A stretch of DNA of 30,273 bases, from positions 1 to 30,273 of IMG/VR virus record IMGVR_UViG_3300048507_000042. One strand, 5' to 3'. Under the pieces are notes generated by a model. That model was not told where the DNA came from. It searched no databases and saw nothing but the letters and a program-made list of their open reading frames with translations. Source of the stretch: a virus. Both the position numbers and the translations under genes were made by a program. Shown one piece after another: positions 3,246-30,273 of the stretch. The number at the start of each line of letters is the position of its first letter. Position 1 is the first letter of the stretch.

Positions 3246-3272
3246 AGTATACCAGCTTTTGAGAAATGTCAA
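3246..3272 (-). promoter_or_regulatory. Sigma70-type promoter before the scaffold and capsid genes
   Basis: The minus strand has a perfect TTGACA (3267-3272) and, 15 bases on, TATACT (3246-3251) preceded by TGG, which makes an extended -10. The spacing is short, but the extended -10 can compensate. It lies in the 71-base gap before the scaffold start, where it could raise capsid expression above that of the packaging genes. Confidence 0.7.
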
Positions 3273-7139: not shown

Positions 7140-7467
7140 TCGCTCTCTCAATAACGATTGGCGGTAGGTCTTGCGCCTCTGTTTCTGGCTGATCTGTCTG
7201 ACCCAACCAGTTCTTGCCTAGCCATACAAGCATAGTCGTATTGCCATCCATCGCAGCCGTGTATTGCTTACGACGTAGGCTCATTCGCCCGTGACTGGCT
7301 TTTTGCCGAAAATACTCCGCAAAACTACAGTCGTATTCACGCTGACAGGCTCGGTTCAATGTGTCATAGCTCACCCCTAGGATTGCAGCCTGCTCCTCTC
7401 CCGTACAGTGAATAGCGCACATCTTATCTACTTGATCCCAGTCTATTTGTGCCAATGGTCTAGCCAT
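7129..7467 (-). CDS. terS: Terminase small subunit
   Basis: A protein of about 112 residues encoded just before the large subunit. The N-terminal half holds a helix-turn-helix (CTGEEQAAILGVSYDTLNR) for recognising the packaging site, followed by a helical part (KASHGRMSLRRKQYTAAM) like the oligomerisation region of small terminases, and an acidic tail that may contact the large subunit. The ATG at 7467 is preferred because GGAG stands six bases upstream; an ATG at 7482 is also possible. It overlaps the upstream ABC-GNAT gene by 8 bases. Confidence 0.87.
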   Translation of the reverse strand: MARPLAQIDWDQVDKMCAIHCTGEEQAAILGVSYDTLNRACQREYDCSFAEYFRQKASHGRMSLRRKQYTAAMDGNTTMLVWLGKNWLGQTDQPETEAQDLPPIVIERASEA

Positions 7468-8536
7468 GTCGCGCTCCAACATATTCAAAACTGGCTGTTA
7501 ACCGAGCCGATGAAGCAGAAGCTTTCAAATCGCCTGTTTTAGGTTGCGCCAACCTTGACGGCTTACGAGTCATCGCCCAAGTGGGGTTTTTCTGCAGTCC
7601 GAGAACAAATGCGGGCGAACTGGTAACCAAGCTCATCCGATACCCTTTCTGCTTGTACGAATCGGCTATTGCATCCATAAACGCAGCTCCAACACCAATT
7701 CCTTGATAATCCGGTTTGACCACGATTCGATGAATCCGTTTCATGTCTTTGACTATCGGATGTGGGAAATGTATTACCGAACACCAAGCGACTGATCGAC
7801 CATCAATCTCGCAAATATATTTATGAGCCGCGTTGTTGTGTGAATGCGTCAAATAGTGATGCTCCATGAACTCGGCCCACTCTCTTTGCTTTGCTTTTCT
7901 GATTGTTGCTCTAATTTCAGGTCGCCTAAGACACCTCCGGCTAAACTGCATATCATCGCAGTTAAACACCCAGTCAGGCTCCAGCCATTCTTCAATGTCA
8001 TAATGACAGCTAACGGCAACAAATTTACGACCTTGCTTGCGAATGAACTTCTGGATCGCAGAAGATCCCAAACGCGCCACCAATCTATCGACCACAGACG
8101 TGAACTCGTCGTAAATGAATGGCTTATCTGCTTCAAGGATCAACCTTGCAAGCTCTGCTCGCATTTTTTGGCCATTGGACAACACGCCAAACGGCTTCAA
8201 CCAATCTGGCGGCGACGAGAATCCAACCTTGGACAGCGCCTCTGTTATCTGTTTTGCGGTTAACATTTCACTGAAATCATCAACAAAGCTATCGCCCGAC
8301 CATTCATACCCGCTAAAAAGCTCATAATCCTGAAACATTCGCTTGGCGATTGTTGTTTTCCCCGTCCCGCTTGCTCCAACAATTAATCCAATGTTCCAGT
8401 CAACATCTTCTATCGGAATGCTTACATCAAACGTCTTGGTAACGACGTCCATATCACAGTCGAACATCGACTTGATTTTATTAGCCCTGAACGTGCCACT
8501 GGTTTCCGATTCGATTACAAACTTTGAACTCGGCAC
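7460..8536 (-). CDS. ABC-type ATPase fused to a GNAT acetyltransferase domain
   Basis: A 358-residue two-domain protein with no membrane segment. The N-terminal half is an ABC-type ATPase: Walker A GASGTGKTT at 54-62, signature LSNGQ at 119-123, Walker B FIYDEF at 140-145 and a switch histidine at 178 in SCHYD. The C-terminal part is a GNAT fold with motif A around 271-285 (IVVKPDYQGIGVGAAF), the acetyl-CoA pyrophosphate loop being QGIGVG. All visible ATPase residues are intact. The GTG start lies inside the end of the ParB-like gene (22-base overlap) and the stop overlaps small terminase, so the three are coupled. The substrate is unknown. A DNA-related role, such as base modification or packaging control, is inference from context. 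Confidence 0.85.
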   Translation of the reverse strand: MPSSKFVIESETSGTFRANKIKSMFDCDMDVVTKTFDVSIPIEDVDWNIGLIVGASGTGKTTIAKRMFQDYELFSGYEWSGDSFVDDFSEMLTAKQITEALSKVGFSSPPDWLKPFGVLSNGQKMRAELARLILEADKPFIYDEFTSVVDRLVARLGSSAIQKFIRKQGRKFVAVSCHYDIEEWLEPDWVFNCDDMQFSRRCLRRPEIRATIRKAKQREWAEFMEHHYLTHSHNNAAHKYICEIDGRSVAWCSVIHFPHPIVKDMKRIHRIVVKPDYQGIGVGAAFMDAIADSYKQKGYRMSLVTSSPAFVLGLQKNPTWAMTRKPSRLAQPKTGDLKASASSARLTASFEYVGARHG

Positions 8537-14357: not shown

Positions 14358-14541
14358 AGTAAAATCTGACATGTTTGAAGAATACTTGGGGCCAGACGAT
14401 GAACTGGTCGCCAAACCAATCTCGCAGGTTGTGGACAACATCCGCGACTGCGACTTACCACTGAACTCGCTAGAGCGTTTTCAGTACATGCAAAACCAAT
14501 TGAGAGGATTGATGGATGGAATCAAAACAAACACTGATTGA
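14350..14541 (+). CDS. Hypothetical 63-residue protein upstream of Erf
   Basis: A small protein that starts in the last codons of the zinc-ribbon gene with GGAGG seven bases upstream, and ends inside the Erf start (26-base overlap). The C-terminal half is helical (LNSLERFQYMQNQLRGLMDG). Family unknown. The tight overlaps on both sides support it as real. Confidence 0.65.
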   Translation: MGRVKSDMFEEYLGPDDELVAKPISQVVDNIRDCDLPLNSLERFQYMQNQLRGLMDGIKTNTD

Positions 14542-15157
14542 TGCCTTGGTGAAGGCCCAGTCAGAAATGTCGCACGCGGCATTTGACCAAACCAACCCAC
14601 ACTTTAAATCGAAGTTCGCTTCGCTGAAGTCGGTGATCGACGCGGTAAAGCCCGCGCTCAATGCGAACGGTATTGCGTACGTTCAGAAGTCGGTACCGAT
14701 GGAAGCTGGCATCGCTGTCGAGACTGTCTTCTACGGTCACGGTGAAGAACTAGCCACTGGGCCGGTTCCCGTACCTGTAGACCGAGAGAATGCCCAAGGC
14801 TTCGGATCGGCTCTGACATACGCGAAACGCTATTCCCTCGCTATGGCCTGCGGTGTTGCTGCAGACCAAGATGATGACGGCAACGCGGCCACAAAAAATT
14901 CAACAGGCCGAAAGCCTCAATCAGTGGCCAAGATTGTGATTGAAGAGACAGGCATGGTTGTTGACCAAAACAAACGCACCCAGTATTCGACCGCTTTGAT
15001 TAACTGCGTGAAAAGTCAAGACGATGCTGGCGTAAACGAACTGATTGAAGAACTAAACGGCTACAAGGACGATGACGCAATGAAAACCTGCGTTTGGGAT
15101 GACTTGCCAAGCCATGTGAAAAGTTACATAACCAAATTGACAGGTGGGAAGCAATGA
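14516..15157 (+). CDS. erf: Erf-type single-strand annealing recombinase
   Basis: A 213-residue protein with the ERF family pattern: LVKAQSEMSHAAFDQTNPHF and KSKFASLKSVIDAVKPAL at the start, VETVFYGHGEELATGPVPV in the middle and GFGSALTYAKRYSLAMACGV, the conserved glycine and aromatic block, followed by an Asp-rich DQDDDGNA. Erf anneals complementary single strands, and in P22 it circularises the terminally redundant genome after infection. This fits the headful-type terminase and the redundancy of the window. The C-terminal third is variable, as in other members. Confidence 0.9.
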   Translation: MESKQTLIDALVKAQSEMSHAAFDQTNPHFKSKFASLKSVIDAVKPALNANGIAYVQKSVPMEAGIAVETVFYGHGEELATGPVPVPVDRENAQGFGSALTYAKRYSLAMACGVAADQDDDGNAATKNSTGRKPQSVAKIVIEETGMVVDQNKRTQYSTALINCVKSQDDAGVNELIEELNGYKDDDAMKTCVWDDLPSHVKSYITKLTGGKQ

Positions 15158-15555
15158 AGCCAAAAAGAGGATTCGCGAGGGACATTTACGAAATCGTGCA
15201 GGCTGACGGGCCGCTGGCCTATAACGGCATCCACAAGCGCCTGAGGGAGCGCAAAGTTCGTATGTCGAAGCATCAGGTACAACGTTGCCTTATCAACATG
15301 CAGCAGCGCAAGCAGTTGGTCAGGTCGGAACAGAATTTTAACAAGTTTATCGTCGTTGAGAACAAAAACGCCGTAGAACGTGCAGAAACGCCCGACCCTA
15401 TACAATCACCCTCCCTCGTGGAGAAAACGCCACAGAGCGTCGAAATAACGCCCACAGAGGGCTTATCTCAGCTCGATTCAACCACGATCACACTGATCGC
15501 AGCAATCGCGGCAGGAACAGCTGCACTCACCACCATAATTTTGAGGTTCGTATGA
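15154..15555 (+). CDS. Winged-helix protein with a C-terminal membrane segment
   Basis: A 133-residue protein. Residues 1-68 look like a winged helix (FARDIYEIVQADGPLAYNG, then MSKHQVQRCLINMQQRKQLV and a wing ending FIVVE). A low-complexity linker rich in Pro, Thr and Glu follows to about 108, then a hydrophobic span at 110-132 with RFV at the very end. This would place a DNA-binding domain at the inner membrane, facing the cytoplasm as a tail-anchored protein. It overlaps Erf and the SSB-tail gene by 4 bases each. Function unknown. Confidence 0.7.
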   Translation: MKPKRGFARDIYEIVQADGPLAYNGIHKRLRERKVRMSKHQVQRCLINMQQRKQLVRSEQNFNKFIVVENKNAVERAETPDPIQSPSLVEKTPQSVEITPTEGLSQLDSTTITLIAAIAAGTAALTTIILRFV

Positions 15556-15842
15556 CAGAGAAAGAATTTGCAAAAGGCTTGTACGTCAAGCCAAAGAAAG
15601 AAAACGCGCCAGACTGGGTCAAGTTTGGGATGAGCATCAAGCGCGAAGAAGCGATTCAGTGGCTGCAAAGTCAGACGGATGAATGGATAAACACCGAAGT
15701 CAAAGAGGGCAAGTCTGGCAAGTGGTACGCTGAAGTCTGGAAGCCAGACCCAAGCAAGGCTCGCGCAGCTAGTCCACAGCAAAACCACACCCCACCCTCT
15801 GCTGCACCACAGGACGATTTCGCAGACGATATTCCATTTTGA
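15552..15842 (+). CDS. Small protein with an SSB-like acidic C-terminal tip
   Basis: A 96-residue protein. The first 66 residues form a compact basic domain (FAKGLYVKPKKENAPDWVKF, then REEAIQWLQSQTDEW and GKSGKWYAEVW). A linker rich in Ala, Pro and Gln follows, and the protein ends DDFADDIPF. That ending is the tip by which bacterial SSB recruits partner proteins. The N-terminal domain is not the usual OB-fold SSB sequence, so it may be a different single-strand-binding domain or a mimic. The position after Erf supports a recombination or replication role. Confidence 0.75.
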   Translation: MTEKEFAKGLYVKPKKENAPDWVKFGMSIKREEAIQWLQSQTDEWINTEVKEGKSGKWYAEVWKPDPSKARAASPQQNHTPPSAAPQDDFADDIPF

Positions 15843-16019: not shown

Positions 16020-16481
16020 ATGGATAAGAACGAATTCACCGCGATGTACGAGCAATGGTTTGCACTGCATCCGTTCAAGAAACGCGACTGGCCGGAACTA
16101 GGCAAAGTCCACTATCAGGCATTCAGTCGGGAATCACCGGCACTGTTCCAAGAAGCTCTTGGGATGCTGACCGAAGAAATAGACAATTTCCCGTCGCCAA
16201 AGCAGATCCGCGCAAAGCTCAACGCATTGTCAAACAACAAGACCGAGGGTGAGGGTAAGACCAACACGACCAGCGAGAACGAGATGATTGCCACGCGACT
16301 GCTGGAACATAAGATGGGTGTCGAGTACAACGGCAAACAGGTAAAAGAACCTGATGGATTTCCCTTGTGGATTGACCAGCTTGTTGATAAGACCATCGCG
16401 GAACTCGGCCCCAAGTATCCGATGAAGACCCTACTGGGGACTCTGGGATACCTAGTGGTTCAAGCGGAGGGCAGACGATGA
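16020..16481 (+). CDS. Putative replication protein, possible helicase loader
   Basis: A 153-residue protein starting at 16020 with GGGGAG upstream. The first 70 residues (FTAMYEQWFALHPFKKRDWP, then QEALGMLTEEIDNFPSPKQI) resemble the N-terminal helical part of phage helicase loaders of the G39P type, where a Trp-rich helix pair is followed by a FPP-like turn. A flexible linker near 78-90 leads to a second helical domain. This would give the phage access to a host helicase, since none is encoded. The resemblance is by eye and the call is tentative. Confidence 0.5.
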   Translation: MDKNEFTAMYEQWFALHPFKKRDWPELGKVHYQAFSRESPALFQEALGMLTEEIDNFPSPKQIRAKLNALSNNKTEGEGKTNTTSENEMIATRLLEHKMGVEYNGKQVKEPDGFPLWIDQLVDKTIAELGPKYPMKTLLGTLGYLVVQAEGRR

Positions 16482-16669
16482 ACGACGCACTGAAAGAATT
16501 CTTGGCCAACGGTGGTGAAATTCAGCAGTTGCCATCAAATGTCCCACGCGACTTGAATGTCTGTCTGAATTGTAAGAACTTGTTCCCAGTTGCCGAAATG
16601 ACCAAAGGGAGTCAACGTCGATGCAAGAAGTGCCACCAACGGCATACGAGCTTCAAGGAGCGCCGGTAG
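16478..16669 (+). CDS. Small zinc-finger protein
   Basis: A 63-residue protein with CLNCKNLFPVAEM and CKKCHQRHTS, giving a CxxC...CxxC zinc finger in the second half and a basic tail (FKERR). The start overlaps the previous stop by 4 bases. Such small fingers are common in phage early regions and may bind DNA or RNA. Function unknown. Confidence 0.75.
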   Translation: MNDALKEFLANGGEIQQLPSNVPRDLNVCLNCKNLFPVAEMTKGSQRRCKKCHQRHTSFKERR

Positions 16670-28807: not shown

Positions 28808-29209
28808 TTATGCAGTTGCTTCGGTAACAGCTCCTGAGACTTGTAGCTCAAAGCTGCCCTCTACCATACCATCAAAGGACGCTGTAATTTCTTTGCCAGT
28901 TAACACACCTGCGCCACTGTAATACTTCTCACCAGTGCCTGTTCCCGTTGGGTACAGTTCCCAGATTAAAGATGCGCCAGAATCCATTACCAGTTGGACT
29001 GCGTCAGCGTCGTCCCAGTAAACATCCATTGAGAGAGTGGCAGAAGTGAGAGAGGACAAGTATGTGCGAGCGGTATCGCCCATCACACTGTCTTCTATCG
29101 TGTCTGCTGATTCCGAGAGCGTGAAGCTGCGGACTTCACCCATAGCAGCGACACTGCCGCCACTTACCGCCAATTTGACTACGCCGCTTGAGCCTTTAGT
29201 CGTTGCCAT
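28808..29209 (-). CDS. Major tail tube protein
   Basis: A 133-residue beta-rich protein directly upstream of the tail chaperones. The start (SSGVVKLAVSGG) and SFTLSESADTIEDSVMGD, then SMDVYWDDADAVQLVM, are the pattern of siphophage tail tube subunits that stack as hexamers. The C-terminal GKEITASFDGMVEGSFELQV is the conserved end strand region. There is no immunoglobulin-like extension. The first 13 codons are repeated at 1-41. Confidence 0.85.
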   Translation of the reverse strand: MATTKGSSGVVKLAVSGGSVAAMGEVRSFTLSESADTIEDSVMGDTARTYLSSLTSATLSMDVYWDDADAVQLVMDSGASLIWELYPTGTGTGEKYYSGAGVLTGKEITASFDGMVEGSFELQVSGAVTEATA

Positions 29210-29221
29210 GATTAAACCCCT

Positions 29222-29656
29222 TTAGGTTGTTCCACGAGTGTACTGGTACTCAATGCGTACCGTTAAAATCACCCCACCGATGGGGGTAATGCTGCCGTCG
29301 TCGGTTTCTACGCTGACAATCTGTGTGTCGATTGCATAGCCACCGCGCGATCTGTCTTCGTCTAGCTTTTCTTCTATAGCCTCGACGATGTTATTCCTTG
29401 CTTCGTCCAAGCCTGTCCCCTTCACATAGCAGACAAGTTGGTAATCAATCGTGCCAAACCGCTGGGTCATGCTCCCGCCCACGGTTCCATCTTCCCTGTT
29501 TTCGTTTGTGGTTCTGACTAGCACCGCTGGGTATTGCGCGTTGCTCAACTTGTCAAAATCAAACGGTTCGCGGGTCACGAACTTGATAGCCACGGGAGTT
29601 GTCACCGCTTGTAACGCCGTGACCAAATTACCCGCAATGTTCTCTCTCACGCTCAT
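29222..29656 (-). CDS. Tail terminator / minor tail protein, right copy
   Basis: The 144-residue homologue of 54-488, about 95 percent identical in protein. It keeps the same length, start and 4-base overlap with the upstream gene, and both copies look intact, so neither has decayed. The flank towards the tail tube gene is identical to the left copy over 122 bases (29169-29290). In this copy the gene is followed by the complete tail tube gene. Confidence 0.75.
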   Translation of the reverse strand: MSVRENIAGNLVTALQAVTTPVAIKFVTREPFDFDKLSNAQYPAVLVRTTNENREDGTVGGSMTQRFGTIDYQLVCYVKGTGLDEARNNIVEAIEEKLDEDRSRGGYAIDTQIVSVETDDGSITPIGGVILTVRIEYQYTRGTT

Positions 29657-30090
29657 CGGTTGAACTCCTTGCGGAAGAATCTACCTAGACGCTCCTCTTC
29701 TTTATCGTTGAAACCGAAGAAAGGACGGGTTTGGTTATTAAACGCGGCCTTCTTAGATGCTTCTTGATTCGAGAAGTAGATACGCGCTGTCCTTCGATTC
29801 AATTGCTCAACCTGCATAGACCCAAGCATCTGTCCTGTTGCGAACAGATCCACAGGGTCATCTGGGTAGCCCTTTTTCTGTAGGAATTTGATATACCCAC
29901 CAGAATAACCTTTAAGGGGGCCATTGAAGCCCTCTCCGGCTTTTGTCCTGCGCAAGATGATCTGCTTGCCCAATGAAGCTGTGCGTCCTATAGCGCGATT
30001 AACGCCCTTCTGGACGTTGTTCTTCTCTTCCTTGAGTATCTGGTTGATATTCTTTGGAAGCTCAACTTCTACGGGCAGTCCCTGCGTCAT
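29653..30090 (-). CDS. Tail completion protein, diverged right copy
   Basis: A 145-residue basic protein, the counterpart of 485-919. It has the same KKAAFNN and RPFFGFNDKEE C-terminal block, with a mostly different N-terminal part (GLPVEVELPKNINQIL). It is one codon longer. The connector and terminator on its two sides are 92-95 percent identical to the left copy, so this gene has been exchanged or evolves much faster. It appears intact. Confidence 0.72.
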   Translation of the reverse strand: MTQGLPVEVELPKNINQILKEEKNNVQKGVNRAIGRTASLGKQIILRRTKAGEGFNGPLKGYSGGYIKFLQKKGYPDDPVDLFATGQMLGSMQVEQLNRRTARIYFSNQEASKKAAFNNQTRPFFGFNDKEEERLGRFFRKEFNR

Positions 30091-30273
30091 CGTGTGAGTC
30101 GCCCATAAGCGACAATACCTTTCTCATCATCTTCAATGGTGCCGCTTGCGTCATCGTCATACTCAACACCGTCAGCAAACACCGCGACCAGTTCTTCTTG
30201 GTAGCGCTGCTGATAGAAGTTAATCATGTTGAGAAAGCGGTCATCTTGAACCCAGTTGGTTAGCTGGGGGAGG
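30087..30273 (-). CDS. Head-tail connector, right copy, cut by the window edge
   Basis: The last 61 codons of a connector gene, whose 5' part lies beyond the window. It matches the C-terminus of the product of 916-1329 with about five changes of 61 (for example Thr/Asn, Asn/Gln, Arg/Lys). The stop overlaps the start of the tail completion gene, as in the left copy. Confidence 0.8.
   Translation of the reverse strand, partial: LPQLTNWVQDDRFLNMINFYQQRYQEELVAVFADGVEYDDDASGTIEDDEKGIVAYGRLTR

Follow-up and report, generated by a model that had tools for sequence, protein, structure and literature searches.

Single-strand-binding proteins (SSBs) are usually recognised by their OB fold, whose elements follow the order β-β-β-α-β-β, and RecO, PriA and other proteins are their partners in the host. 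As for phages, the SSB of HK620, a DUF669 protein encoded beside sak4, depends on its last six residues to bind and stimulate Sak4 (PMC5928155); in 80alpha, efficient annealing requires both the C-terminal domain of Sak and the last 7 residues of the SSB (PMC11846896), and Sak, Sak4 and their Ssb matter in phage replication (PMC5499656). The model for HK620 and 80alpha is that SSB coats the single-stranded DNA (ssDNA), its tip recruits the annealase, and the annealase displaces SSB and anneals the strands (PMC5928155, PMC11846896, PMC5499656).

The stretch of DNA analysed here (the window, 30,273 nucleotides) encodes an Erf-type annealase, then one overlapping 133-aa ORF, and then a small protein that belongs to what is called family A (Table 1). 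The 133-aa ORF overlaps each neighbour by 4 bases, with ATGA at the family A start, and it is kept, altered or missing among relatives; by eye, it appears to combine a small DNA-binding domain and, at its C-terminal end, a hydrophobic segment. The first 20 residues of a 63-aa ORF further downstream (16478-16669) resemble the SutA RNA-polymerase-binding domain, at an E value of 6.6e-6 that does not reach Pfam's cut-off; a CxxC...CxxC pattern comes next, and the product is a possible RNA polymerase binder. Elsewhere in the window, a 358-aa ORF on the minus strand (7460-8536) looks by eye like a P-loop ATPase joined to a part resembling an acetyltransferase. The two window ends repeat each other: 1-586 matches 29169-29754 at 88% identity and 916-1101 matches 30087-30272 at 79%, and the sequence between these segments has diverged. 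Either a gene was duplicated, or the genome is circular and its ends derive from different strains.

Table 1. Positions of the family A gene, its parts and neighbours in the window, and of tip-bearing frames in other loci (locus named in the position column)
Feature	Position	Strand	Remarks
Family A protein, 96 aa, SSB-like, presumed annealase partner	15552..15842	+	ATG start, ends QDDFADDIPF
Core domain, residues 1-67 of family A protein	15552..15752	+	AlphaFold2, conservation
Variable linker, residues 68-87 of family A protein	15753..15812	+	low pLDDT, low identity
SSB-type acidic tip DDFADDIPF, residues 88-96	15813..15839	+	last five residues conserved
Erf-type annealase, 213 aa, presumed partner	14516..15157	+	PF04404 E 8e-21; phrog_2324 E 8.3e-41
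Accessory 133-aa ORF between Erf and SSB slot	15154..15555	+	weak phrog_30408, E 6e-4
Conserved downstream ORF (MDKNEFTAMYEQWFALHPFKKRDW...)	16020..16481	+	right border of exchanged slot
Tip-bearing Erf frame	L181:3983-4675		ends TDDIPF
Tip-bearing Erf frame	L182:1053-1778		ends TDDIPF
795-799 residue DVPF frame	L026:4295-6679		
795-799 residue DVPF frame	L197:6603-8987		

Near relatives of the window protein occur in six IMG/VR contigs and a distant one in podovirus MW202828.1 (38% identity, E 6e-10), from which 32 loci were found. A profile search of IMG/VR gave 321 relatives among 378 pattern matches, the best 80 being retained, and bacterial assemblies gave 7 family A relatives among 215 pattern matches; the 7 plasmid records that matched all did so at E 1 or higher. 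The window protein had no significant match in Pfam, NCBIfam or PHROGs (best PHROG E 0.002). Neither PF00436, the canonical SSB family, nor DUF669 matched it at E ≤ 10; for 30 family A relatives, PF00436 was absent from the 12 families listed at E ≤ 1, and DUF669 did not match at that threshold. Among rejected candidates, phrog_2544 and phrog_4477 (E 0.002 and 0.17) span residues 33-96, a region half in the core and half in the tail, and a 335-aa XD2 protein has mainly the tail in common with the window protein. The titles and abstract openings found by a literature search did not describe the family, which has no name to search by, and the accessible part of a paper on atypical phage SSBs (PMC8276246) held no match to it.

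Regarding the core, its near-invariant positions (F6, G9, N18, A19, P20, D21, F22, V23, W45, N47, G56 and Y59) make up the motifs FxxG and NAPD[FW]V followed by W45, N47, G56 and Y59; with seven more divergent members added, only G9 and G56 remain invariant. It is under purifying selection (dN 0.02-0.21; dS 0.56-2.8, with saturation in 3 of the 12 pairs), and it is not basic, the median net charge of 76 cores being 0 (range -3 to +5). AlphaFold2, run with 69 sequences, predicted strands at residues 10-14 and 25-29, a helix at 31-40, strands at 47-52 and 58-63 and a disordered linker; the core alone, with 76 core sequences, gave the same elements at a pLDDT of 92.5 and a pTM of 0.70. The predicted arrangement is β-β-α-β-β, or β-β-β-α-β-β if an extra two-residue strand at 5-6 is counted.

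This second order equals that of the OB fold, so that family A might be an ordinary, very diverged OB-fold SSB, an alternative that concerns the fold and not the function and that overlaps with the explanation preferred below. Two other hints point the same way. VIA-align returned a single row, 1wjx (TT0801; rmsd 4.9 over 62 aligned residues), which we take to be SmpB, an OB-like protein, at Z scores of 2.0 and 2.2, which is background level; and phrog_4932, named 'SSB', gave 5 matches in 31 records (E 0.001-0.003, 12-14 bits, too weak to use), two of which, at E about 0.002, map by coordinates to the C-terminal part of family A genes. Against such kinship stand the missing PF00436 match and an hhalign probability of 2-3% (2.3-2.7% when trimmed) between the family A profile and 28 phage OB-type SSB frames, whose halves matched each other at 100% as a control. 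Moreover, Foldseek found nothing in the PDB at E ≤ 0.001 with either the full-length or the core model. The diverged-OB alternative is judged possible, if less likely than not. PDB sequence searches had best E values of 0.91 and 0.22, and the two matches at E ≤ 0.001 in a viral structure library are unnamed phage proteins, probably family A members themselves. The fold-search listings contained no SSB, PC4 or other ssDNA-binding fold, a result that still allows for such folds. The original prediction that the N-terminal 66 residues do not read as a usual SSB OB fold agrees with the PF00436 and profile results, and the structural comparison it proposed returned a confident core and no significant OB match; the core may be a diverged OB fold or have another fold.

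As for the tail, that prediction also held that the protein ends in an SSB tip, DDFADDIPF, behind a flexible linker, and both are real. Linker pLDDT is below 50 at residues 71-88 of the window protein model, and the tip is acidic and ends hydrophobic-Pro-Phe, as in canonical SSBs. In the fetched loci, the strict tip [DE][DE][ILV]P[FW] terminates 88 of 172 family frames, as opposed to 43 of 11,721 other frames of at least 60 residues and none of 5,874 minus-strand frames; it arises at a frequency of 1e-5 when residues 67-96 are shuffled, and a chance origin is ruled out by these frame counts and the shuffling. The 43 frames outside the family comprise 15 of family B (described below) and 11 OB-type SSBs, in the same kind of slot, plus 17 other proteins. 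Conservation is limited to the last five residues, with a mean pairwise identity of 51% against 10% for the ten preceding residues, means that come from 62 of the 69 aligned relatives, namely those whose tail exceeds 8 residues, tip-less rows having been dropped beforehand; over the nine tip residues, dN was 0.38-0.43 in 3 of 12 pairs and at most 0.09 in 8. A looser tip pattern closes 86 of the 118 family members read. Of the 32 without it, 19 form one subgroup of 71-73 residues that has neither linker nor tip, and 13 have variants (EEQPF, NDFPF, DLPPGW, DIPFS), extensions or no tip.

The slot that the gene occupies was compared in 56 loci fetched with the window Erf, a census in which near-duplicates were kept and raw counts are thus inflated. 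After Erf, family A was found in 28 loci, a family B type in 16 and a canonical SSB in 3, none in 2, and 7 were cut off, so 49 were readable. The canonical SSBs (L178, L179 and L180) are of the OB type, with PF00436 E values of 1.9e-31 in L178 and 6.5e-19 in L180, and the window gene occupies the same slot as these annotated SSBs. Family B, present in 15 Erf loci, is a protein of 86-87 aa with the same tip as family A; L176 was counted as family B type by its own seed and has an acidic end of another form. Both L155 (family B) and L176 matched phrog_18154, 'single strand DNA binding protein' (E 3e-5 and 2.8e-5), and the window protein did not. Family A and 15 trimmed family B proteins aligned at hhalign probabilities of 0.1-0.2%, and Erfs accompanied by family B reach 94% identity to one accompanied by family A. 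Two candidates were rejected here. An apparent double occupancy by families A and B in 7 Erf loci was an artefact in which one ORF matched both, because the six-frame stretches held common upstream DNA and tails. Kinship with DUF736, to which the motif [NH]xPD[FY] presumably points, was not supported: L176 had no Pfam match, and the similar group F had an hhalign probability of 0.1%.

Between related phages, only the reading frame at the slot is swapped, as observed in the two pairs compared. L005 and L155 are 95-100% identical in 60-base steps from position 3268 up to the start codon (one step 92%) and 30-63% identical inside the gene. L143 and L162 are 90-98% identical for about 480 bases upstream and 27-50% in the gene body, with a boundary step of 75%; in the 120 bases after the stop, identity is back at 82% and 95%, and then another unlike stretch follows. 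In both pairs the identity runs through the first codons (ATGAGCTACGA). In the loci read, a relative of the conserved downstream ORF was found after family A and also after family B cassettes. Such an exchange between unrelated cores was not found in the family libraries or the literature search listings.

A second census covered the best 80 of 83 Sak loci, again with near-duplicates kept. Family A was present in 19 loci and PF00436 in 24 records, never both; an OB-type SSB lay downstream of Sak in 20 of the 80, and many other loci had an additional tip-bearing frame within 3 kb. PF00436 was absent from all 81 family A records, namely the window and 80 distinct records from sets of 27, 37 and 19 (three common to sets, each set with none), as opposed to 24 of 61 Sak records without family A (Fisher p 0.0004, which ignores phylogeny and includes many records that are short fragments); this whole-record SSB search used PF00436, plus phrog_4932 in 31 records. 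The other tip-bearing small proteins downstream of Sak, mostly without annotated function, fall into families C (L205-L211, L230), D (L198, L200), E (L231-L234, L237), G (L223-L225) and H (L216), which are candidates for additional SSB types. Kinship of group D with family A is uncertain, the hhalign value being 10.7% or 74.7% after trimming, by column rule, and 81% untrimmed.

Neighbour-gene clustering over 121 loci placed annealases upstream of family A: the representative upstream genes match ERF, SSAP_Sak and Rad52_Rad22, and one class matches only phrog_11717, of unassigned function. DUF3799 PDDEXK-type exonuclease-like genes are linked to the family as well. An annealase-type gene was within 2.5 kb upstream in 93 of 121 loci by iterated HMMs, which overlap between classes; upon dereplication, it was upstream in 55 of 65 loci and downstream in none. 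A single-pass check recovered the same 55, 39 via Pfam-verified Erf, Sak and Rad52 seeds and 16 via phrog_11717 seeds only, so that these 16 associations rely on counting phrog_11717 as an annealase by inference. The phrog_11717 genes take the annealase position (L018:2531-3061, L036:3411-4001, L122:5436-5993) and overlap with Erf and Sak in iterated HMM searches; they may encode an undescribed annealase.

Tip and annealase tend to occur together. The tip is kept in 51 of 55 annealase-linked representatives (48 full and 3 weakened) and in 4 of 8 without annealase, two short loci excluded; Fisher p is 0.007 with weak tips counted as tips and 0.026 otherwise, values that ignore phylogeny and use tip classes (full, weakened, none) assigned after the sequences were seen. 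The mismatches among the 65 representatives are four tip-less proteins beside an annealase-type gene (L035, L052, L075, L092), two of which, L052 and L075, have DDIPF or EDIPF followed by a C-terminal extension, and four tip-bearing ones that lack an annealase-type gene within 2.5 kb (L034, L042, L054, L061), L054 having a match about 3.9 kb upstream. In 17 of the 28 loci without annealase, a DNA polymerase A gene lies upstream; the three polymerase-linked representatives are all tip-less. The 19-member tip-less subgroup has DNA polymerase A in the fetched stretch in 17 cases, the other two having too little upstream sequence; neither an annealase nor a tip-bearing frame was found in the fetched stretches of the subgroup. 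Since this subgroup keeps the core, the core must itself do something, and the subgroup, tip-less beside DNA polymerase A, suggests that the core can work without the tip. Loss of the tip in relatives, which had been named in advance as speaking against a partner role, does occur, both in this subgroup and in isolated family members, a few in number, of which some adjoin annealases.

The tip is also found on other proteins. The Erfs of L181 and L182, where the slot gene is missing, themselves end TDDIPF; docking of the tip on a separate annealase is therefore too simple an account there, and a third partner is possible. In six loci (L026, L186, L192, L193, L195 and L197), a frame of 795-799 residues just downstream ends DVPF (DNDVPF in L186, DDVPF in the other five), and the tip of the family member is weakened to EEQPF, EQPF or EEF. 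From these endings the tip seems to have moved from the family member onto the downstream frame; L013 has a similar-sized, primase-like frame in the same place without the tip. A tip on Erf or on the downstream frame leaves room for a further partner, perhaps from the host.

By analogy with the described phages, family A probably provides phages with an SSB-like partner for the neighbouring annealase of the Rad52 superfamily, which in the window is Erf; its position, exchangeability and tip are the grounds for assigning it the same role as the SSBs of HK620 and 80alpha. The 67-residue core would most likely bind ssDNA, probably as an oligomer, and the SSB-type tip of the flexible tail would most likely dock on the annealase. 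Docking would bring the annealase to the protein-coated ssDNA and, to judge from HK620 and 80alpha, the annealase would displace the coat and then anneal complementary strands in phage recombination and concatemer formation. Weighing against this reading are the tips of the L181 and L182 Erfs, the non-basic core, the absence of a solved-structure match in the searches above and the four plus four mismatches of tip and annealase among 65 representatives. The original suggestion of a new type of single-strand-binding protein gains indirect support from the slot and from the exchange with family B; DNA binding is inferred, and the fold may be OB or another.

The other suggestion was a mimic, that is, a tail-bearing adaptor without ssDNA binding whose tip recruits or titrates host SSB partners for the annealing pathway, and this now appears improbable. 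A protein of this kind would explain why the tip differs so little from that of E. coli SSB (DDDIPF; PMC5928155), why the core is neither basic nor of a recognised fold, and why the tip, present on Erf and on the DVPF frames, is not confined to SSB-like proteins; in particular, the two Erfs ending DDIPF indicate that the tip can target something other than Erf. It fits poorly with a slot shared with canonical SSBs, with the exchange with a family that weakly matches an SSB PHROG, with the lack of a PF00436 SSB in the searched family A records, and with the polymerase-linked subgroup, which keeps the core without a tip and has no tip-bearing frame in its fetched stretches. Least plausible is a recombination mediator of the UvsY, RecO or Orf type, which would load the annealase onto DNA coated by host SSB and would not replace SSB: the linkage to annealases and DUF3799 genes would suit it, but a mediator is expected to bind an SSB tail and not to carry one, and L061 encodes a separate NinB protein (PF05772), presumably of the lambda Orf family, right after the family gene.

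For the annealase-partner reading, a further step is advanced only tentatively: that the core is a new non-OB ssDNA-binding domain and the position a plug-in 'SSB slot' in which unrelated ssDNA-binding cores are swapped. If so, recombination at the gene borders would swap the cores while selection keeps the tip, the tip could even shift onto the annealase or a downstream replication protein, and the Sak-locus families C, D, E, G and H would be more undescribed SSB types. Gene context, together with the five residues of the tip, points to a large family overlooked by profile-based annotation, in phages whose recombination modules otherwise appear SSB-less, and offers a rule for finding more, namely to seek the tip after an annealase. 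Family A may also help explain the poor performance of annealases outside their own module, and its members are compact candidate partners for recombineering.

In conclusion, the role of an annealase-linked phage SSB is already known, and family A and the exchange between unrelated cores appear to be new, as judged from the family libraries and the literature search listings. Like canonical SSBs (PF00436), family A has an acidic tip and a flexible linker, and OB-type SSBs occupy its slot behind Erf in L178-L180 and lie downstream of Sak in other loci; unlike them, it has no PF00436 match or profile similarity, and its core has 67 residues versus 104 profile positions. With family B (phrog_18154) it shares slot, flanks, tip and similar length, whereas homology of the cores is undetectable. 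Two further close systems are those of the two phages. Like the HK620 SSB (HkaK, DUF669; PMC5928155), family A is a small phage protein whose annealase neighbour is its presumed partner, and both end in an SSB-type C-terminal tip, NDYPPF in HK620 and DDIPF here; they differ in that family A has no DUF669 match, has 96 aa as opposed to 21.3 kDa, and accompanies Erf-, Sak- or Rad52-type annealases instead of the RecA-like Sak4, and in that the activity of the HK620 SSB is demonstrated while that of family A is predicted from sequence and context. The Sak-SSB pair of 80alpha (PMC11846896, PMC5499656) likewise sets an annealase beside a tip-bearing SSB and provides the model for the mechanism; its Ssb, unlike family A with no PF00436 match, is 79% identical to the host SsbA (PMC5499656).
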